Source of the DNA: Gemmata palustris
GTDB taxonomy: Bacteria; Planctomycetota; Planctomycetia; Gemmatales; Gemmataceae
Direction of reading: 5' to 3'
Length of the DNA: 64,000 bases
Assembly: GCF_017939745.1 (NCBI RefSeq)
Contig: NZ_JAGKQQ010000001.1
Location: forward strand, 1,984,001-2,048,000
Positions within the stretch are counted from its first letter, which is position 1. Every line of letters begins with the position of its first letter. Made by a program: the position numbers and the translations under genes. Below the pieces are notes generated by a model. It saw nothing but the letters and a program-made list of their open reading frames with translations. It did no database searches and had not been told where the DNA came from. Positions 34,921 to 46,547 of this stretch are shown here, one piece after another.

Positions 34921-36408
34921 TCACGCGATGATTTCGGTGATCGGGCGGCCGCGCTCCAGGTCCAGGCGCCGCCGACCGGGGATCTCCAGCCGCTGCGGGT
35001 CGAGCCCGAGTTGCCGCAGCACGGTCGCGTGAATGTCGGCGACGAAGTGCCGGTTCTCAGCGGCGTGAAACCCGAGTTCATCGGTCGCACCGTGGACAAT
35101 CCCTCCCTTGATCCCGCCCCCGGCTAGCCACGACGAGAACCCGTAAATGTGGTGATCGCGCCCGCGCAGTTCCTCGCGATCACTCTCCCCGTCCGGCCGC
35201 GGCTCGACGTTCGGCGTCCGCCCGAACTCGGTCGCCCACACTACCAGCGTGCTGTCCAGCATCCCGCGGCGCTTGAGATCCTTGAGCAGCGCGGCAACCG
35301 GCCGGTCCACCTCGCGGCACCGGTCACTCGTGTTTTTCCGCAGTTCCTGGTGCGAGTCCCACAGCCCGTTGTCGTCGTCGGCCGCCCCGCCGTGGTAGAT
35401 CTGGACGAACCGTACCCCGCGCTCGACCAGGCGCCGGGCCACCAGGCACTGGCGGCCGAACGGCGCCGTTACCGGATCGTCCAAGCCGTACAGGGTCTTC
35501 GTTTCGCGGGTCTCGTCGGCCAGCCCCACGATGTCCGGGAACGCCGACTGCATCCGGAACGCCAGTTCGTAGGACCTGATTCGTGCCCTGAGTGCGGGAT
35601 CGTCCGGGTACTCGACGTCGGCGAGATTGTTCAGCTCGCCCACGAGGTCGAACTCGGCCTTCTGAGCCTCGCGCGTGAGACCGGCGCCGCGCGGCGGGTA
35701 CGGCACCGCGCGATCCGGTTGCACCTCGACGGGTATGCCGTCGTGCTCCGGCCCCAAGTAACTCGCCTGGTGCGCCCCGTAGCCCCCGCCGAAGTCGCTC
35801 GGCGGCCGCCCCATCACCACGAACTTCGGCAGGTCGCGGTTGAGCGTGCCCAGTCCGTAATGCGCCCACGAGCCCAGGCACGGCTCGCGCCCGTCGATGA
35901 TGATCCGGCCGGTGTGGGCCAGGGCCTGCGCCGCGTGGCTGAAGTCGGTGGTCCAGAGCGACCGCACCACCGCAATATCGTCCGCGCAGTCGCCGACGTG
36001 CGGCAGCCAGTCGCACACCGCGGTGCCGCACTGCCCCCGCTCGCGGAACCCGACTTGCGGGCGCAGGATCTTGGTCCCCAGTCGGGCGGCCCCGGCGAAC
36101 ACGCGGAAGTTCTTGGTCACCTTCGGGTCGCTGACGGTCCGCTCGAACGGCGTCTCGGCGATCGTCTTGTCCGCATACTTGTTCAGCGCCGGTTTGGGGT
36201 CGAAGGTCTCCAAATGGCTGGCCCCGCCGAGCATGAACAGCCAGATCACGCTCTTGGCCCGCGCGGCCGGCGCGGCCCCGCCCCCGGCCGTCACCGGCTT
36301 GGCGATGCCGTCTTCGAACAGCATGGCCCCGAGAGCGGCGCCGGTGAACCCCATCCCGAGGTCCGCGAGGAACCGCCTCCGCCCAACGGGGCGCGGTGAC
36401 ACCGCCAT
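34921..36408 (-). CDS. DUF1501 exported protein, Tat signal
   Basis: The 495-residue protein has a Tat signal (GRRRFLADLGMGFTGAALGA). DUF1501 landmarks follow: WLFMLGGASHLETFDPKPAL, a middle FGRQCLVARRLVERGVRFVQ, and a late VVWATEFGRTPNVEPRPDG with a DHHIYGFSSWLAGGGIKGG segment. It ends with VADIHATVLRQLGLDPQRLE. It starts 15 bp after the DUF1549/DUF1553 gene on the same strand, so the two are co-transcribed (module B). It is a paralogue of the 470-residue DUF1501 protein at 10.7-12.1 kb but diverges in the middle. Confidence 0.9.
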   Translation of the reverse strand: MAVSPRPVGRRRFLADLGMGFTGAALGAMLFEDGIAKPVTAGGGAAPAARAKSVIWLFMLGGASHLETFDPKPALNKYADKTIAETPFERTVSDPKVTKNFRVFAGAARLGTKILRPQVGFRERGQCGTAVCDWLPHVGDCADDIAVVRSLWTTDFSHAAQALAHTGRIIIDGREPCLGSWAHYGLGTLNRDLPKFVVMGRPPSDFGGGYGAHQASYLGPEHDGIPVEVQPDRAVPYPPRGAGLTREAQKAEFDLVGELNNLADVEYPDDPALRARIRSYELAFRMQSAFPDIVGLADETRETKTLYGLDDPVTAPFGRQCLVARRLVERGVRFVQIYHGGAADDDNGLWDSHQELRKNTSDRCREVDRPVAALLKDLKRRGMLDSTLVVWATEFGRTPNVEPRPDGESDREELRGRDHHIYGFSSWLAGGGIKGGIVHGATDELGFHAAENRHFVADIHATVLRQLGLDPQRLEIPGRRRLDLERGRPITEIIA

Positions 36409-36423
36409 ATCGGTCTCCTTACT

Positions 36424-38730
36424 TCAGCGAACGGTGATAAAGTCGTTGTGGTTCAGCAGCGCGTGAACCAAATACTCGCGCGCCCGCGCGACCGGGCCGG
36501 CGGCAGGGGGCACCGGCGGCAGCGGCTTGGCGTCCCCGAGCACCAGCGGTAACCCGCGCACCCGCGTGGCTAATTGTTTGGCGGCCTCGGGATCAAGTTT
36601 GACGGGCTCCGGCGGGAGCGGGAGCGGGGTCAGCCCGTTCGGATCGGCTAATAGCGCCTGCTGGCGGGCCAGAAACGCCTCACATGCCGCGCCCTCGGCG
36701 GCCGTGGGGGGGCGCCCGAGGACGTGCTCGAACGCGGCCGGTACGAACGCGGCCGGGGCGGGCGCGTCGCGCTCGAGCCGGCGGGCGATCCGCCGGGCCT
36801 GGTCCCACGAGAACGCGCTGTTTTCGAGCGCCAACGCCTGCTGAGGCACTATGCTCTGCTCGCGGCGATAGCACTCCTCCACGCCCGGCGCATCGAACGC
36901 CAAGAGCAAGTCCATCTTGTCCTCGCGCGAGTAACGGTAGTAGAGGCTGCGGCGCCCGGTTTCTGTTCCGCGGGCCGGATCGACCGGCGGTCCGCCGGCC
37001 GTTGGTTCCAGCGCCCCGGCCAGCCACAGGAGCGAGTCGCGCACCGCCTCGGCCTCCATCCGCCGAGAGTTCGCCCGCCAGTAGAAATTATTGTCCGGGT
37101 CGGCGGTCAAGTTCCCGGCCGACGCGCCCCGGTTCGACGAACTCATGCGGTACGCGGCGGAGGTCACGATGAGCCGGTGCAGGTGTTTGGCGCTCCACTC
37201 GCGCTCCATGAATTCGACGGCCAGCCAGTCGAGCAACTGCTGCTGTGCGGGCGCCGGCGTGCGGAGGCCGAAGTCGGCAACGTTGTTCACGAGCGGTCGG
37301 CCGAAGTGCCGCATCCAGATGTGATTCACGGCGACACGAGCCGTAAGTGGGTTCTCCCGGGCGCCGATCCACTTGGCCAGCGCGAGCCGCCGCCCGGTGC
37401 TGTTCGCCCCGGCCGCGGGCGGAGCGACGGCGACCGCGCCGAGCGCCGCCGGGACCCCCGGGGGCATGCGGACCGATTTGTCCGGCGCTTTGGAGTCCCC
37501 CCGCACGAACACCCAAGTCGGCTCATCCGGTTTGGCGTCGTACACGCGAGCGACGTGGGCCGCCGGGCCGGTTTCGCCAGGAACCGGGTCGGTGCGCACG
37601 TCGTGCGGCTCGAAGAACGCGCGGAACCGGTAGTACTCTTTCTGGCTCACCGGGTCGAACTTGTGGTCGTGGCACCGGGCGCACCCGAGCGAAAGTCCGA
37701 GAAACGCTTTCGCGGTGTGGTCGACCGTATTGGTCAGCCAGATGTCGCGATCCAGTTTGAACCAGTTGCGCACCAAGAAGCCGGTGGCCGCGGCGGTGGT
37801 GTGGTCCCCGCCGGCGACTTCGTCCCCGGCCAGCATCTCGAGTACCATACGGTCGTAGCGCTTGTCCTCGTTGAGCGCGCGGACGATCCAATCGCGCCAC
37901 CGCCAGACGTGCGCGTTACCCCACCAGATGTCGGCTTTGGCTTTGCGCCCGTCGGCGTCGGAGTAGCGCCACACGTCCATCCAGTGCCGGCCCCAGCGCT
38001 CGCCGTACCGCGCGTCGGCGAGGAGGCGCTCGACTACCTTCTCGTATGCTCTTTCGGAAGTGTCCGCCAGAAACGCGGAGAGCTCCTCTCGGGTCGGCGG
38101 GAGCCCGATGAGGTCGATGTAGACGCGGCGCAACAGGATCGCGCGCGGCGCGGGCGGATTGGGGGTCAGTCCGTGCCGTTCGCGACCGACGGCGAGAAAG
38201 GCGTCGATCGGGTGCCCGGCCGCCGGAACCGGGGCTGCGACCGGGGGCCGGAACGCCCAGTGATCCGACCGGGGAGCGGGGGCGGATTCGTTCGGCGCGC
38301 CGGATTCGTTCGACGCGCCGGCCCCGTCGTCGATCCAAGCCTTGATGATTGCAACTTGCTCGGCGTTCAGCGGTTCGCCGGTCGGCGGCATCTGGACCTG
38401 GTCATCGGCGCCGGTCAGTACCGTGACAAGGAGGCTTCTGGAACCGTCACCCGGGACAACCACGCCACCACTGTCGCCGCCCTTGCGGATAGACGCGACG
38501 GTATCGAGCCGGAGCCCGGCCGCGGACTTGCTCGGCCCGTGGCACGAGTAGCAGTGAGCTTCCAGGATGGGCTTGACATGACGCGCGTAATCGATCTTGG
38601 TTGCGACTGAATCGGGCTTGTTTTTCTTGGGCTTCTTCTTGCGGGGGTGGTTCGCTGCGAACGCAGCGGTTCCCGCCGCGGCCAGAAGTAACACGAGCAC
38701 GAGATACCGTCGCCTCGGAAACCTTCTCAT
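36424..38730 (-). CDS. PSD1 cytochrome c-like / DUF1549 / DUF1553 exported protein
   Basis: The frame is open much further upstream, through a transposase relic on the opposite strand. The first credible start is the ATG at 38730, giving an Arg-rich signal peptide (MRRFPRRRYLVLVLLLAAAG). The 768-residue product has the PSD1 heme motif CYSCH (C60, C63, H64). DUF1549 shows GLPPTREELSAFLADTSE and RWGRHWMDVWRYSDADGR, then LGCARCHDHKFDPVSQKEYY. DUF1553 shows RVAVNHIWMRHFGRPLV and RANSRRMEAEAVRDSLLW. It is shorter than the module A protein because it lacks that protein's charged spacer. It is followed after 15 bp by DUF1501. Confidence 0.92.
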   Translation of the reverse strand: MRRFPRRRYLVLVLLLAAAGTAAFAANHPRKKKPKKNKPDSVATKIDYARHVKPILEAHCYSCHGPSKSAAGLRLDTVASIRKGGDSGGVVVPGDGSRSLLVTVLTGADDQVQMPPTGEPLNAEQVAIIKAWIDDGAGASNESGAPNESAPAPRSDHWAFRPPVAAPVPAAGHPIDAFLAVGRERHGLTPNPPAPRAILLRRVYIDLIGLPPTREELSAFLADTSERAYEKVVERLLADARYGERWGRHWMDVWRYSDADGRKAKADIWWGNAHVWRWRDWIVRALNEDKRYDRMVLEMLAGDEVAGGDHTTAAATGFLVRNWFKLDRDIWLTNTVDHTAKAFLGLSLGCARCHDHKFDPVSQKEYYRFRAFFEPHDVRTDPVPGETGPAAHVARVYDAKPDEPTWVFVRGDSKAPDKSVRMPPGVPAALGAVAVAPPAAGANSTGRRLALAKWIGARENPLTARVAVNHIWMRHFGRPLVNNVADFGLRTPAPAQQQLLDWLAVEFMEREWSAKHLHRLIVTSAAYRMSSSNRGASAGNLTADPDNNFYWRANSRRMEAEAVRDSLLWLAGALEPTAGGPPVDPARGTETGRRSLYYRYSREDKMDLLLAFDAPGVEECYRREQSIVPQQALALENSAFSWDQARRIARRLERDAPAPAAFVPAAFEHVLGRPPTAAEGAACEAFLARQQALLADPNGLTPLPLPPEPVKLDPEAAKQLATRVRGLPLVLGDAKPLPPVPPAAGPVARAREYLVHALLNHNDFITVR

Positions 38731-39549
38731 ACGAGACCCCACCCCTCTACTTTGGCCTCGGCGACCGGGTGCCGCCCGGAGGCCGCACCAATGCCCCCGC
38801 TTCTGCCCGGGGCTGGGGCGCCGGTTTAGCAAAGATGGGGGCCGCAGGGAAGACGAGTCCTGCAGCTCGCGCGGGCCGTTTAGTTCGTTGGTCTTGGCAG
38901 TTGGGTGAAGTTCGGGTATTCGCTCCCGGTCCTTTTTCGGGGAGACCGGTATGGAAGCCGTGCCGTCGCTGACCGAAGTTCTGGCCACGATTCCCGATCC
39001 GCGCGATCCGTCGGGCGCCGGTACCCGCTCCCGGTAGTTCTGAACCTCGTGATCGTCGCCACACTCGCGGGCACGCGCTCGTTGGAAGCCATTGCCCCAT
39101 TCGCACGCGACCACGGCCCCGCGCTGGCCCACGCCCTGGGTTCCGGTCCGCCAAGACCCCGTGCAACGCGCGAACACCTCCGCCCGCACCGCTTCGATTG
39201 CGGTAAACACAGCAGCGAGTTCCTCGATGCGCCGAAACCGCTGAAGTTACTCATCAAACGCCTCCGGGTGAGCCATGAGTTTCTGGAGCCCGGACGGTCC
39301 GCGTTACCCCGTGTACCCCGTCGTCGTACTACTCGGGCACCAGCGCCCAGCCCTCGCCGGCTTGCGAGCGGGTGTAGGCTTCGCGGCGCCGGCGCCCGAA
39401 GTGTTCGGTTCGGGGTCCGAGCCGGCGCGGACCGTTTCGGTTCTGGTTGGGAACAATTTCATGATCCGGGAATTTCGGTTAGCCGGTTCGCTGTCGGCGG
39501 GGATTGTAGGGTAGCAATGGGACTTCGGATCACCGGAGTGGGGACGACA
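38731..39549. other. 819-bp gap with a transposase relic, between divergent genes
   Basis: The region separates the minus-strand PSD1 gene from the plus-strand sigma factor fusion and must hold both promoters. An ISAs1-like relic occupies about 38951-39240. I recognise nothing in 38731-38950 or 39241-39516. The plus frame 1 is open throughout and runs into the sigma factor gene, which makes an over-long gene call likely. Confidence 0.6.
38951..39240 (+). pseudogene. ISAs1-family transposase N-terminal relic
   Basis: Starting at an ATG at 38951 the frame reads SLTEVLATIPDPRDPSG and soon stops. Shifting frame gives RRYPLPVVLNLVIVATLAG, then SLEAIAPFARDHGPALAHALG. A further shift gives FRSAKTPCNAR. 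This order and wording match the N-terminus of ISAs1/H-repeat transposases (IPDPR...G.RYPL...LL...A.FARDHGPALAHALGFRR..TPC). The catalytic core is missing. At least two frameshifts show it is dead. Confidence 0.75.
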
Positions 39550-42500
39550 ATGGCGATACGGGGCGCCGGGATCGACCGACAGCGCGTTCGGCAGTTGGTA
39601 ACGGGGACTGTCGATCCCGGGACCACGGACCGGGAGCTGCTCCGACAGTTCACCGAGCGGCAAGACGAGGGCGCGTTCGAGACCCTGGTCCGGCGCCACG
39701 GGCCGATGGTGATCGCGACCGGGCACCGGGTGCTCGGCAACGCACACGACGCGGAGGACGTGTTCCAGGCCGCGTTCGTGCTCCTGGCCCGACGAGCCCC
39801 GTCCGGGCACTGGCACCCGTCGGTCGCGAGCTGGCTGCACCGGACCGCGCACCTGCTGGCCCTCAAGGTCCGGCGCGGGACGGCCCGGCGGACCCGGCGC
39901 GAGGGCGCGGTCGCGCCGCGGGTGCCCGCGGACCCGCTCGCCGAGCTCACCGCCCGCGAGTTGCTCGCGGTGCTCGATGAGGAACTCCTCGCGCTGCCCG
40001 AGCCGCTCCGGGGTCCGCTCGTGCTGTGTTACCTCGAGGGCGCGACCCGGGACGAAGCGGCCGCGCGCCTGGGGTGTCCACTCGCCACACTCAAGAACCG
40101 CTTGGAGCGGGGCCGGGACCGGCTCCAAGCCGCGCTCGCCCGGCGCGGGCTGGGCCTTTCTGCGGCTCTCCTCGGGACACTTCTGGGCGCGCGCCCCGCG
40201 CACGCGGTGCCCGTACCCCTTGTCCAGAGCATGTCACACATCGTGCGGACACTCGCTACCGGAAATCCGGACGGGGTAATCTCGTCCCGGGTTGCTCAAC
40301 TCGTTAGTGGAGGAATCGGGATGACGGGTCGGAACAAGATGAGGGCTACCCTCGGCGTACTGATCCTCGGCGGGTTCCTCGCGGTCGGGGCGGTCGCATC
40401 GAGCACCGCCCCCGCGGCGCCGGTCGCGCCACCAACGGGCACCACCGCGCCCCTGGATCGAGCCCCCGAACCGCACGCCCCACCGGTCGCGGCCGGGGCA
40501 ATGCGCGTGGTCGTTTTGGACGCCCGGGGCCAGCCCCTGTCGGGGGCCAACGTTCACGTGGGTGTCTGGACCGACGAAAAGGATTTTAAAGCCAACCGCG
40601 ACACCGAGACCGATACGGCAGGTGTCGCCCGGATCGAGCTCCCAAAGACTTTCTACATCCTGCGCCTGTGGGCCAGTAAGATCGGGTGCGCGACCCTGTT
40701 CGCGAACTGGGAGCAGGCCGAACTGTTGAACGGCAAGGGCGTCCCGGCCGAGTACACGTTCCGGCTCGAGCCCACGGGAACCGCGGGGGGCCGAATCGTT
40801 GACGAGAAGGGGCGCCCGGTCGCCGGGGCCAAGATCGAGGTCCGCCTCGGGAACGACCCGAGGCCCGTTCGGGGCGATGGGCGCGTCCGTTACAGCGACA
40901 CCTTGGCACGGGGCAGCGACGCGCCCGCGACGGACGCCGACGGCCGGTGGCGCATCGACACCGTGCCGGACCACCCGGAGGTCGAACTGAGCCTGCTCGT
41001 GACGCACCCGGACTATGTCACCGAACCCCGCTGGGCACAGGTGGCTAAGGAGACCGGGATTACGACCGCAGCCCTGCGGAAGGGGACCGCAATTCTCGTG
41101 CTCAAGACCGGCGTCGTCGTCCGCGGGACGGTGACCGATCCGGACGGCAAGCCGATCAAGGACGCGCTCGTGGCCCACAGCGACGCCCCCGACGGGGGCG
41201 ACACGACGAACACATTCTCGACCGACGCCGACGGCCGGTTCCGACTCCCGGCCCTGGCCCCGGGAAAAACGTCACTCACGGTGATTGCTCCCGGCTGGGC
41301 GCCGCAACTCCGCGCGGTCGAACTCAAGCCCGACTCCCCGGCCCAGGACTTCCGTCTGGTGCCGGGTAAGTTGGTGCGCCTTCGGACCGTCGATACCGGT
41401 GGTAAACCGGTCCCCGCTGCGTCCGTATCCCTGATGGAGTGGAAGGGGAGCAAATCGATCCATTCGGTACACAACGCGAACCACCCGAAGGGGACGGGCA
41501 CCGGGATCCCGCGCCGGGCCGACGCGAACGGGTCTTGGGAATGGGCGGCCGCTCCGAACGAGCCGGTGAAAGTCCAAATCGAGGCGCGGGGGTACACGGC
41601 ACTCAAGCTCGAGGTCACCGGCGGGTCGCCGGATCGGACCGTGACCCTCAAGGCCGAGCATCGGGTCACCGGTACGGTCACGGACGCGGCCACCGGCAAA
41701 CCGGTCCCGCGCTTCGCCGTGATCCCGGTGGACGTGTTCGGGAAGGACCACCTGAGCGCGGAGCGGTTCAACGGGGCCGCCGGCACCGCGGGGCGGCTCG
41801 ACTTTTTGGCGTACCGGACCGACATCCCGCTCCGGCTCCGGATCGAGGCGCCCGGGTACCGGACCCAGGACGGACCCGAGTTCCGGGTCGGGGACGACGC
41901 GGCCCGAGTTCAGAACTTCCGGCTCGCCCCGAGCCGCGCGCGGACCGGGCTGGTGGTCGATGCTACCGGCCGGCCCGCGGCCAAGGCGGAAGTGCTCCTC
42001 GCCACCCCGACCGAGCAGGTCCGGCTCTCCGGGGACGACACCCACCGCACGTTCACGGACGAGCAGGGGCGGTTCGAGTTCCCGGACCCGGGCGAGCCGT
42101 GGGCCGTGGTCGCTCGGACCGGCGCGGGGTTCGCGTTCGCCGAGTGTTCCGCCGACCGGGTCGATGCGGGCACCCTGAAGCTGCAACCGTGGGGCGCGGT
42201 CCGTGGCACGCTGTACGACGGCGGAAAGCCGGTGCGCGGGGCCACGGTGTTCGCGGCCGCGGTCCGCATCCAAGACCTGACCCGGCCGCGCGTTTCCTAC
42301 GACCTGCAAGCGACTACAGACGCCGAGGGCCGGTTCGAGTTCCCGCGCGTCCCGCCCGGTCCGGTGAGCGTTCGGGTCTACTTGGGTCCGTGGAAGGACG
42401 AGGGGTTCCGTTCCGGACCGAGAGTGCCGCTCGACCTCAAGCCGGGCGCACGGGTCGACCTCGCGCTCGGGTCCGGTGGGGCCGTCGTGACCGGACAGGT

Positions 42501-43314
42501 GAAGCTCGCCGGCAAGGTTCCACCGGACCTCGACTGCACGTACTCGCTGAACTACCTGGTGCGCCGGGAGCCCGGGATCACCCCGCCGCCCGACGTGGCG
42601 GCCGCCGGGTTCGATGCCCGGAAGGGGTGGCGGGACACGTGGCACCAGAGCACCGAGGGCCTCGCGTACCTGAGCACCCTTCAGAACTGGTTCGTGAAAC
42701 TCGCCTCCGACGGCACGTTCCGGGTGAGCGGTGTGCCGGCCGGGGAGTACGACCTGGCAGTCGCGGTGTACGCGAAGCCGAGCGGGTGCCTCATCGACCC
42801 GGTGGCCCGGCGCGTGGTCCGGGTCACGGTGACGGCCACCGATGCGGCCCGCGGGGAACTGAAGGTGTCCCAGATCACAGCAGAGGTCGAACCCGTTCTG
42901 AGCCCCGGGGACGTCCCGGCACTGTCTTTCAAGAGGACCGACGGCAAGGACGGGACGCTCGCGGACTGCAGGGGCAAGTACATGGTGGTGCATTTCTGGG
43001 CGAGTTGGTGCGCGCCGTGCAAGAAGCAACTCCCGGCGCTGAAGACGTTACACGAGCGGTTCGCGGCGCGCGGATTGGGAGTGCTCTCGCTCGCGCTCGA
43101 CGACGACGCGACGGCTTGGGAGACGGCGCTGAAGGGCCTCGATGTGGGGTGGGCACAGGGGCGCCTCGGGGCCAGCGGCACGAGTGGGGTGTCGAGCGTG
43201 CCGACGTACTGGCTCCTCGACCCGACCGGGAAGCTCGTGGCCAAGGCATACGACCCCAACGAACTCGCCACGGTCCTTGAGGAGCGGCTCAAACGCGCGC
43301 CCGCCGATCGGTAG
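39550..43314 (+). CDS. ECF sigma factor fused to TM, carboxypeptidase-regulatory-like repeats and thioredoxin
   Basis: The 1254-residue product is a single uninterrupted frame. Residues ~40-84 are sigma-70 region 2 (DEGAFETLVRRHGPMV, GNAHDAEDVFQAAFVLLARR). Residues ~150-203 are region 4 (LPEPLRGPLVLCYLEGATRDE, then ARLGCPLATLKNRLERGRDR). A membrane segment lies at ~262-283 (ATLGVLILGGFLAVGAVA). Then about six to eight beta-sandwich units of the carboxypeptidase-regulatory/CNA-B type follow (V-x-G-T/R-V-x-D-x-x-G-x-P; D-A-x-G-R-F-x-x-P). The last ~150 residues are a TlpA/ResA-like thioredoxin with active site W-C1154-A-P-C1157 (VVHFWASWCAPCKKQLPALK) and cis-Pro SSVPTYWLLDP. The topology implies a cytoplasmic sigma factor tied to an extracytoplasmic redox sensor or reductase. 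The start could also be the ATG at 39517. Confidence 0.88.
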   Translation: MAIRGAGIDRQRVRQLVTGTVDPGTTDRELLRQFTERQDEGAFETLVRRHGPMVIATGHRVLGNAHDAEDVFQAAFVLLARRAPSGHWHPSVASWLHRTAHLLALKVRRGTARRTRREGAVAPRVPADPLAELTARELLAVLDEELLALPEPLRGPLVLCYLEGATRDEAAARLGCPLATLKNRLERGRDRLQAALARRGLGLSAALLGTLLGARPAHAVPVPLVQSMSHIVRTLATGNPDGVISSRVAQLVSGGIGMTGRNKMRATLGVLILGGFLAVGAVASSTAPAAPVAPPTGTTAPLDRAPEPHAPPVAAGAMRVVVLDARGQPLSGANVHVGVWTDEKDFKANRDTETDTAGVARIELPKTFYILRLWASKIGCATLFANWEQAELLNGKGVPAEYTFRLEPTGTAGGRIVDEKGRPVAGAKIEVRLGNDPRPVRGDGRVRYSDTLARGSDAPATDADGRWRIDTVPDHPEVELSLLVTHPDYVTEPRWAQVAKETGITTAALRKGTAILVLKTGVVVRGTVTDPDGKPIKDALVAHSDAPDGGDTTNTFSTDADGRFRLPALAPGKTSLTVIAPGWAPQLRAVELKPDSPAQDFRLVPGKLVRLRTVDTGGKPVPAASVSLMEWKGSKSIHSVHNANHPKGTGTGIPRRADANGSWEWAAAPNEPVKVQIEARGYTALKLEVTGGSPDRTVTLKAEHRVTGTVTDAATGKPVPRFAVIPVDVFGKDHLSAERFNGAAGTAGRLDFLAYRTDIPLRLRIEAPGYRTQDGPEFRVGDDAARVQNFRLAPSRARTGLVVDATGRPAAKAEVLLATPTEQVRLSGDDTHRTFTDEQGRFEFPDPGEPWAVVARTGAGFAFAECSADRVDAGTLKLQPWGAVRGTLYDGGKPVRGATVFAAAVRIQDLTRPRVSYDLQATTDAEGRFEFPRVPPGPVSVRVYLGPWKDEGFRSGPRVPLDLKPGARVDLALGSGGAVVTGQVKLAGKVPPDLDCTYSLNYLVRREPGITPPPDVAAAGFDARKGWRDTWHQSTEGLAYLSTLQNWFVKLASDGTFRVSGVPAGEYDLAVAVYAKPSGCLIDPVARRVVRVTVTATDAARGELKVSQITAEVEPVLSPGDVPALSFKRTDGKDGTLADCRGKYMVVHFWASWCAPCKKQLPALKTLHERFAARGLGVLSLALDDDATAWETALKGLDVGWAQGRLGASGTSGVSSVPTYWLLDPTGKLVAKAYDPNELATVLEERLKRAPADR
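40309..40323 (+). promoter_or_regulatory. Internal Shine-Dalgarno and ATG inside the sigma-thioredoxin fusion
   Basis: GGAGG at 40309-40313 lies seven bases before an in-frame ATG at 40321. That ATG begins MTGRNKMRATLGVLILGG, a good signal-anchor N-terminus. Initiation there would give a 997-residue anchored repeat-thioredoxin protein without the sigma domains. This is the strongest ribosome-binding site in the gene. Confidence 0.55.
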
Positions 43315-45827: not shown

Positions 45828-46547
45828 ATGTTTCAGCGGACGACGTACATCGCCGCGCTCGCAGTGTGCGGCCTCGGGTTGACCGCCCTTCACAGCGGCG
45901 CGCAACCCGAAAAGAAAGCGAAGCCGGAAGACTCGGCCAAGTCGAAGAAGGCCCTTCAAGAAGTTCAGGACTTCATCGGGCTGTGGAACCTCGAGGGCAC
46001 GCAGAAGGTCGGCGCGAAGACCGAGGCGTGGAAGGAGAAGGTGAGCTGGGGCTGGAAGTTCAAGGACGGCGACGCCTGGATCACAGTTTCGTTTGCCGAG
46101 GGTAAGGGCAAATACTTCACGAGCGGCGAACTGAAGTACGACGCGGAGAAGAAGAAGTACCTGCTCGCCCTCACCCCGTCCGCGAAGGGCGAAGCCGCCC
46201 AGACGTTCGAGGGCGCCTACGCGAAGGGCGCGCTGAAGGTCGAGCGCAAGGACCCGAAGACCAACGACGTGTACCGCCTCACACTGAACACCGCTGCCGA
46301 GGGCGAGCGGTTCGCCATGAAGTACGAGAAGCAGGACGGCGGGAAGGGCCTGTTCTCCGCGGTCCACGCGATGAACGGCAGCAAGGACGGCGTCGTTGCC
46401 GGCGCACCCAAGAAGCCGGAGTGCATCGTCTCGGGCGGTTCCGCCAACATCTCCGTGAGCTACAATGGCAAGGACTACTGGGTGTGCTGCTCCGGGTGCC
46501 GCGACGAGTTCAAAGAGAATCCAGAAAAGTACGTGAAGGGCAAGTAG
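45828..46547 (+). CDS. Exported protein with C-terminal YHS-like metal-binding domain
   Basis: The 239-residue protein has a signal peptide (TYIAALAVCGLGLTALHSGA). A central beta-rich domain (~45-175) repeats short Gly/Lys/Glu strands (FIGLWNLEGTQKVG, YDAEKKKYLLALTP) and resembles lipocalin-like or DUF1579-type domains. The last ~45 residues are YHS-like: CIVSGGSANISVSYNGKDYWVCCSGCRDEFKENPEKY, with Cys pairs positioned as in TRASH/YHS metal sensors. A role in binding a soft metal such as copper in the periplasm is likely but not shown. It stands alone between two plus-strand genes. Confidence 0.8.
   Translation: MFQRTTYIAALAVCGLGLTALHSGAQPEKKAKPEDSAKSKKALQEVQDFIGLWNLEGTQKVGAKTEAWKEKVSWGWKFKDGDAWITVSFAEGKGKYFTSGELKYDAEKKKYLLALTPSAKGEAAQTFEGAYAKGALKVERKDPKTNDVYRLTLNTAAEGERFAMKYEKQDGGKGLFSAVHAMNGSKDGVVAGAPKKPECIVSGGSANISVSYNGKDYWVCCSGCRDEFKENPEKYVKGK

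Follow-up and report, generated by a model that had tools for sequence, protein, structure and literature searches.

We analysed a 64,000-nucleotide (nt) stretch of the Gemmata palustris genome (contig NZ_JAGKQQ010000001.1, positions 1,984,001 to 2,048,000; hereafter the window), in which a single reading frame joins an extracytoplasmic function (ECF) sigma factor to a transmembrane (TM) segment, a series of CarboxypepD_reg beta repeats and a TlpA/ResA-type thioredoxin domain. The part formed by the repeats and the thioredoxin domain (here called the module) was also found on other carriers, among them M56 peptidases of the BlaR1 type. The protein may be a membrane-tethered ECF sigma factor with a fused outer module that serves as signal input, a reading in which we place an even degree of confidence, and the module itself is probably a portable sensor part.

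Domain order and conservation of the fusion

The coordinates of the gene and its parts are given in Table 1. A first-pass annotation of the window, made without database searches, had proposed the order sigma regions 2 and 4, TM segment, beta repeats and thioredoxin within one frame, and both the Pfam profiles and the hydropathy profile agree with this order. The Pfam matches to the two sigma regions, CarboxypepD_reg and AhpC-TSA all exceed their curated cut-offs, and with regions 2 and 4 both present the protein classifies as an ECF sigma factor; TIGR02937 (sigma70-ECF) also matches residues 42-196 with 53.9 bits (cut-off 42.9). The carboxypeptidase-regulatory-like units were recovered by Pfam as CarboxypepD_reg stretches, and the AhpC-TSA match covers residues 1122-1228. 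Among the Pfam families listed for the protein (25 of 32), there is no M56, WD40, anti-sigma or zinc-finger family.

Table 1. Features of the fusion gene and its upstream element (positions in the window)
Feature	Position	Strand	Basis
Conserved upstream element (GTTAGCCG..GGGGATT), candidate promoter of the fusion gene	39478..39506	+	aligned in five genomes
ECF sigma - TM - CarboxypepD_reg repeats - thioredoxin fusion	39550..43314	+	1254 amino acids (aa), no internal stop on translation
Sigma-70 region 2, residues 46-113	39685..39888	+	Pfam PF04542 Sigma70_r2, E 2.9e-9, 37 bits (cut-off 24)
Sigma-70 region 4, residues 142-192	39973..40125	+	PF08281 Sigma70_r4_2, E 5.5e-9, 36 bits (cut-off 25.7)
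Transmembrane segment, residues 266-284, predicted N-in	40345..40401	+	hydropathy peak
CarboxypepD_reg beta repeats, predicted extracytoplasmic, residues 313-1110	40486..42879	+	PF13620, 7 stretches, E 4.3e-55
TlpA/ResA-type thioredoxin domain, residues 1111-1254	42880..43311	+	PF00578; WCAPC C1154/C1157; cis-Pro P1218

The thioredoxin domain carries the WCxxC motif and the cis-proline (cis-Pro) that mark the TlpA/ResA-type family, with both cysteines at the positions claimed in the first-pass annotation, which had also noted a cis-Pro loop. Sequence comparison with solved structures returned TlpA and ResA together with DsbE-like relatives, and a structure model of residues 960-1254 (mean predicted local distance difference test score, pLDDT, 82; predicted template modelling score, pTM, 0.72) matches the folds of ResA, TlpA and DsbE-like proteins. 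The model of the whole module was of low confidence (mean pLDDT 66, pTM 0.45) and was used solely for the statement that the module consists mostly of beta strands.

With regard to the membrane segment, the main hydrophobic stretch (residues 266-284, hydropathy score KD19 2.06) lies between the sigma regions and the predicted outer domain, the layout of an IutY-like tethered sigma factor. It is preceded by three lysine or arginine (K/R) residues within 12 positions and followed by none within 12. The equivalent segment forms the highest hydropathy peak in all six orthologues (KD19 1.86-2.55), four of which show a K/R excess ahead of it.

To determine how far the fusion is conserved, 95 genomes of the same family were surveyed, including the window's own (the window lies in G000:C1), with E 1e-75 as the match threshold. 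Eight genomes matched the window protein, six of them at full length and with the full domain order: G000 itself, G016 (72% identity), G002 (69%), G499 (65%), G483 (56%) and G019 (32%). The two partial matches are G443, which has no sigma head and is cut by a contig end before the thioredoxin, and G496, an ECF sigma factor whose repeats are different and in which no thioredoxin was seen by eye. Five of the six full-length matches are free of stops; that of G483 reports one TAA but has an open frame of 1252 aa. The first-pass annotation had named residues 230 to 260 as the stretch where a sequencing error or a stop would undo the fusion; this is refuted by the five other genomes that keep the order continuous (L002, L003, L055, L056 and L005). 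Nor are the sigma factor and the thioredoxin always separate genes in close relatives, with 6 fusions among the 95 genomes; yet in G443, another member of this family, no sigma head precedes the module.

Carriers, history and upstream element

An M56 (BlaR1-type) peptidase precedes a homologous module in G050, G054, G057, G113 and G053 (PF05569 at all five; 26-33% identity to the module of the window over the alignment), the frame of G053 being split by stops. HExxH is kept in all five of these thioredoxin-bearing M56 proteins, and a Penicillinase_R (BlaI-type) gene lies directly upstream in every case, separated by 1 nt (G054, G050) or 19 nt (G113) or overlapping by 4 nt (G057, G053). Other modules have no regulator head. 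Those of G233, G350 and G439 (L047, L048, L049) open with a signal-peptide-like segment, so that they appear to be secreted on their own, and are followed downstream by a PadR-like gene and then a gene with a TM segment and CarboxypepD_reg; profiles run on G233 gave PadR, CarboxypepD_reg and permease prefix domain 1 for this pair. The same gene pair was seen in G435 (L052), there without the module. As homologous modules follow M56 peptidases and signal-peptide-like segments, the module of the window protein would likewise be placed outside the cytoplasm.

Two further copies without a sigma head, G443 and L098, stand near the clade of the window. L098 holds a head-less module of 54% identity, interrupted by one in-frame stop, on a contig labelled Candidatus Kuenenia that is perhaps, as we guess, a mis-binned planctomycete contig; among the matches listed (80 loci) it is the one long relative, nearly all others matching little beyond the thioredoxin region.

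The tryptophan, both CxxC cysteines and the cis-Pro position are invariant across the 12 modules that were aligned end to end. Of the 16 thioredoxin domains counted, 15 keep CxxC, namely six ECF-borne, five M56-borne (that of G053 in the second open piece), the head-less ones of G233, G350 and G439, and L098; the exception is G132. G443 (contig end) and L099 (broken frame) were left out of this count, as were G435, G044, G053:C187 and G496, in which the W-x-x-C-x-x-C motif was not seen. G053, with its broken frame, was also left out of the module alignment and the module trees. C1080 (module column 768) was considered as a third redox cysteine and rejected; we make no claim for it because its possible partners differ between lineages and because it is absent in G057.

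In a draw of 392 genomes from the phylum, 9 had a module match at E 1e-60 or better, including that of the window and also G435 and G132, both without an intact CxxC. Though rare, the module thus occurs in several families. M56 matches numbered 0-7 per genome in the six genomes with ECF-borne modules versus 9-27 in the eight with M56-borne or head-less modules. The corresponding numbers of region-4 matches (E 1e-6) were 48-142 versus 23-66, ranges that overlap and for which at most 150 candidates were scored per genome, and G132, with 3 M56 and 32 region-4 matches, fits neither group. As a weak test, these numbers suit the idea that the module may have been taken up by whichever membrane regulator is common in a lineage.

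Sigma-thioredoxin fusions occur in at least three layouts, and their cysteines are not always kept. A second fusion in G000 (G000:C1:270178-272673; L090 5176-7674, minus strand) has 832 aa and the order ECF, TM, TIGR03067 and thioredoxin with CGDC. This second family is matched in 11 of the 95 genomes at E 1e-75 or better; four of its 14 matching rows are head-only (two from G010, one each from G008 and G000), and G461, which has internal stops, was left out. ECF fusions with CxxC were found in G000, G016, G495 and G460 (L181, cut at the contig start), and sigma-less forms that keep CxxC in G448 and G462 (L182, L186). G016 has a further layout (L210 252-2699, minus strand), ECF-TM-TIGR03067-thioredoxin with WCGPC, which was the sole sigma-headed one of eight AhpC-TSA-bearing frames of at least 701 aa taken from five genomes. 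A thioredoxin-like protein (by eye) is encoded divergently beside the second G000 fusion (L090 7905-9116).

The sigma-domain tree comprised 55 rows, with L017 and L181 left out for their incomplete sigma domains, and the module tree 16 rows, four M56-borne modules among them. The sigma heads of G000, G016, G002, G499 and G496 form one supported clade, and those of G483 and G019 fall elsewhere. A single clade of all six module-bearing heads was rejected by the approximately unbiased test (p-AU 6.6e-6), as was one of five heads without the long-branched G019 (p-AU 3.1e-6); a clade of the core four plus G019 was not rejected (p-AU 0.065). In the module tree, a clade of all six ECF-borne modules was rejected (p 8.9e-6), that of five without G019 was not (p 0.34), and a clade of the four M56-borne modules was rejected (p 5.4e-56). 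The placement of G019 and G057 is unsure because both are long branches. On the simplest reading of these trees, ECF heads and M56 proteins would each have acquired the module at least twice, and one clade of ECF heads would have had different outer parts.

The region ahead of the fusion gene is conserved as well. In G000, G016, G002, G499 and G496 alike, the block GTTAGCCGRTYCGNYGYCGGYGGGGATTT is found 40-50 nt ahead of the corresponding start codon, which supports the start at 39550; an in-frame ATG near 39514 may be an alternative start. From the start of the block to the start codon there are 72 nt in G000 and 77 nt in G016, and because this distance is no constant multiple of three, the block is not conserved as protein. 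The spacing is presumably compatible with an ECF-type promoter. A 26-nt form of the element, allowing up to 3 mismatches, was found once each in G000, G016, G002 and G499 and in neither G008 nor G010, and the reversed control gave 0 hits in the six genomes. With a looser 28-nt form, G016, G002 and G010 each gain one site (2-3 mismatches), G010 having no match to the window protein at 1e-75. The best match in 54 other loci, mostly ECF paralogues, had 6 mismatches, and shuffling L094 30 times yielded 7-10. As G000, G016, G002 and G499 had served to define the pattern, G496 is the one independent case: there the element occurs with 3 mismatches, 40 nt before the start of a sigma factor of the same head clade that has a different outer part. 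Upstream of the genes of G483 and G019, which have the module on other heads, the element was not found (best locus matches 8 and 6 mismatches, respectively). Since it is present in G496 and lacking upstream in G483 and G019, the element follows the sigma head, whichever outer part is attached, and does not follow the module. We infer that the sigma factor regulates itself. The element was also tried as a guide to a regulon and rejected in this role, the strict form being single-copy in four genomes, the looser one adding three sites and a two-block form occurring at chance level.

Possible roles of the module and relation to known systems

In the mechanism that we propose, sigma regions 2 and 4 would lie in the cytoplasm and be connected by one TM helix to a rod of CarboxypepD_reg beta domains that ends, outside the membrane, in the TlpA/ResA-like thioredoxin. 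This outer module would report a thiol/disulfide or ligand state, and the signal would cross the TM helix so that the sigma part is freed or activated, probably by proteolysis near the membrane by analogy with IutY. The sigma factor would then transcribe at least its own gene. That the outer module is an input device is suggested by its presence on two unrelated transmembrane regulators (ECF and M56). The strongest argument for a sensor is that the module is joined to different heads and is shared with BlaR1-type proteins, in which sensing falls to the C-terminal domain on the outside (stated for BlaR1 in PMC9834060 and PMC3356374). A more specific version, which we hold to be less likely than not, has the module as a portable extracytoplasmic thiol-redox sensor cassette on at least two unrelated transmembrane gene switches, ECF sigma factors and BlaR1-BlaI systems; the disulfide state of the thioredoxin at its outer end would directly gate the sigma factor, which would amplify its own synthesis.

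Thiol/disulfide control is favoured by the invariance of the tryptophan, CxxC and cis-Pro in the 12 aligned modules. The first-pass annotation had proposed such control by an extracytoplasmic thiol/disulfide state; the domain order and the CxxC that it described are right and the outside location that it assumed is backed by homologues, whereas the control of the sigma factor itself we still infer. Several observations weigh against the sensor mechanism. Three ECF fusions of the second family lack CxxC (G460, L189; G446, L185; G463, L187), and modules without a regulator head exist in G233, G350, G439, G443 (contig-cut) and L098 (one in-frame stop); thiol control as a general rule is weakened by both. 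The module of G132 has SxxC, and G435 (L052 6714-11728, minus strand) encodes an M56 protein with a BlaI-like gene and similar repeats in which no W-x-x-C-x-x-C motif was seen; to judge from the latter, the outer part varies on M56 proteins too. Moreover, the two-block form of the upstream element turned up no more often in the window than chance predicts (4 found, 4.2 expected), and the neighbourhoods of the ECF form are, by eye, not common to G000, G016, G002 and G019.

The head-less copies and the invariant active site are explained as well or better by the main rival, a tethered, self-regulated enzyme, which we consider rather unlikely overall. Here the protein would be an extracytoplasmic thiol-disulfide reductase, acting for example in cytochrome c or copper-site maturation, with the TM segment as an anchor and the sigma factor setting the amount of enzyme through its own promoter. 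Such an enzyme agrees with solved relatives that include ResA, TlpA and DsbE-like proteins, with the strict upstream element that occurs once in each of four genomes, at the fusion gene (three more sites in the looser form), and with the divergent neighbour, which encodes a planctomycete cytochrome c protein (PSCyt1). However, this neighbour is by eye not common to G016, G002 and G019, and an enzyme leaves unexplained both the module on M56 proteins beside BlaI-type genes and its repeated joining to different ECF heads. Sensor and enzyme may also be one and the same, provided that the enzyme signals its own redox load.

A sensor of another kind, in which the thioredoxin fold serves for binding or docking with little need of the cysteines, would account for the second-family fusions and the G132 module that have no CxxC. 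We regard it as improbable, as all six ECF-borne modules keep CxxC, even where module identity drops to about 31%, and so do all five of the M56-borne copies that were counted.

It is more improbable still that two membrane-spanning stretches return the module to the cytoplasm. A first, weaker hydrophobic stretch starts at residue 194, near the end of the sigma head, and is a recurrent peak among the orthologues (five of six), reaching KD19 1.85 in G002; G483, G019 and G002 show additional weak peaks ahead of the main segment, and K/R residues are equal on both sides of the main segment in G002 and G483. However, the first stretch is weak in the window protein (KD19 1.26 versus 2.06) and is not among the peaks of G499, and elsewhere the homologous module stands behind signal-peptide-like segments or M56 proteins. 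A frame or assembly artefact fusing two genes, finally, deserves practically no credence, being refuted by the orthologues in six of 95 genomes, five of them stop-free and that of G483 with its open frame.

The sensor mechanism can be compared with several known systems. ECF sigma factors with N- or C-terminal extensions occur in members of at least 26 groups according to the part of PMC8999054 available to us. The extensions named in the available parts of this review and of PMC8103513 are WD40, SnoaL, tetratricopeptide repeat (TPR), cysteine-rich, zinc-finger and TM; thioredoxin is not among them, and the word does not occur in PMC8999054. ECF heads with C-terminal extensions are thus already known, and the extension that ends in a thioredoxin is what these portions of the two reviews lack. 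An ECF-thioredoxin fusion was likewise absent from the titles and abstracts of the literature searched, a set that, as far as it was available, did not include the main ECF classification papers. WD40-like repeats are described as prevalent, not as universal, in the ECF57 group (PMC8999054, in part). The window protein resembles the ECF57/WD40-type sigma factors in its sigma2-sigma4 head, its long C-terminal extension and its many paralogues in the genome; in G000, where 150 of 308 candidates were scored, there are at least 136 region-4 matches, and 79 of these matches lie in stop-to-stop frames of at least 400 aa. It differs in that its extension consists of CarboxypepD_reg repeats ending in a thioredoxin (AhpC-TSA) and not of WD40. 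IutY (ECF243) is a sigma factor activated by proteolytic processing (PMC8999054, available part), and like it and the ECF52 protein SCO4117, as far as these are described there, the window sigma factor continues into a TM segment and an outer domain; unlike them, it has no anti-sigma or zinc-finger family among those Pfam families listed, and its outer part is of another kind.

With BlaR1/MecR1-BlaI systems the protein shares an outer C-terminal module behind a membrane regulator, and relatives of this module occur on M56 proteins beside BlaI-type genes; in contrast to these systems, the window protein has no M56 among its listed Pfam families, and its module is not a penicillin-binding domain. 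The likeness to TlpA, ResA and DsbE oxidoreductases is one of sequence and fold (thioredoxin fold, WCxxC, cis-Pro). These proteins act as enzymes in the periplasm or on a membrane anchor and are not known to carry a sigma factor, whereas the thioredoxin domain of the window is fused to one.

Gemmata-like planctomycetes have dozens of ECF sigma factors with long extensions, and one such extension is now seen as an exchangeable part shared with BlaR1-type sensors. This leads to the concrete hypothesis that ECF extensions are outside sensors, for which matched pairs are at hand: two regulators that share an outer module, and a single clade of sigma heads whose members bear one of two outer parts. 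A membrane-tethered sigma factor under redox gating would represent a signalling layout absent from the available parts of PMC8999054 and PMC8103513.

Gene neighbourhood

In the window the neighbours of the fusion gene encode DUF1501, PSCyt1/PSCyt2/PSD1, zinc-ribbon and YHS proteins. As a clue to partners this neighbourhood was considered and rejected, the neighbours being by eye absent beside the fusions of G016, G002 and G019. The DUF1501 gene and the PSCyt1/PSCyt2/PSD1 cytochrome gene (34921-39210, minus strand) are divergent from the sigma gene, and the protein ending in YHS (45828-46547, plus strand) is encoded downstream of the zinc-ribbon gene. In G016, a heavy-metal P-type ATPase gene (by eye; L035 12417-15773, minus strand) lies upstream of the sigma-thioredoxin gene.

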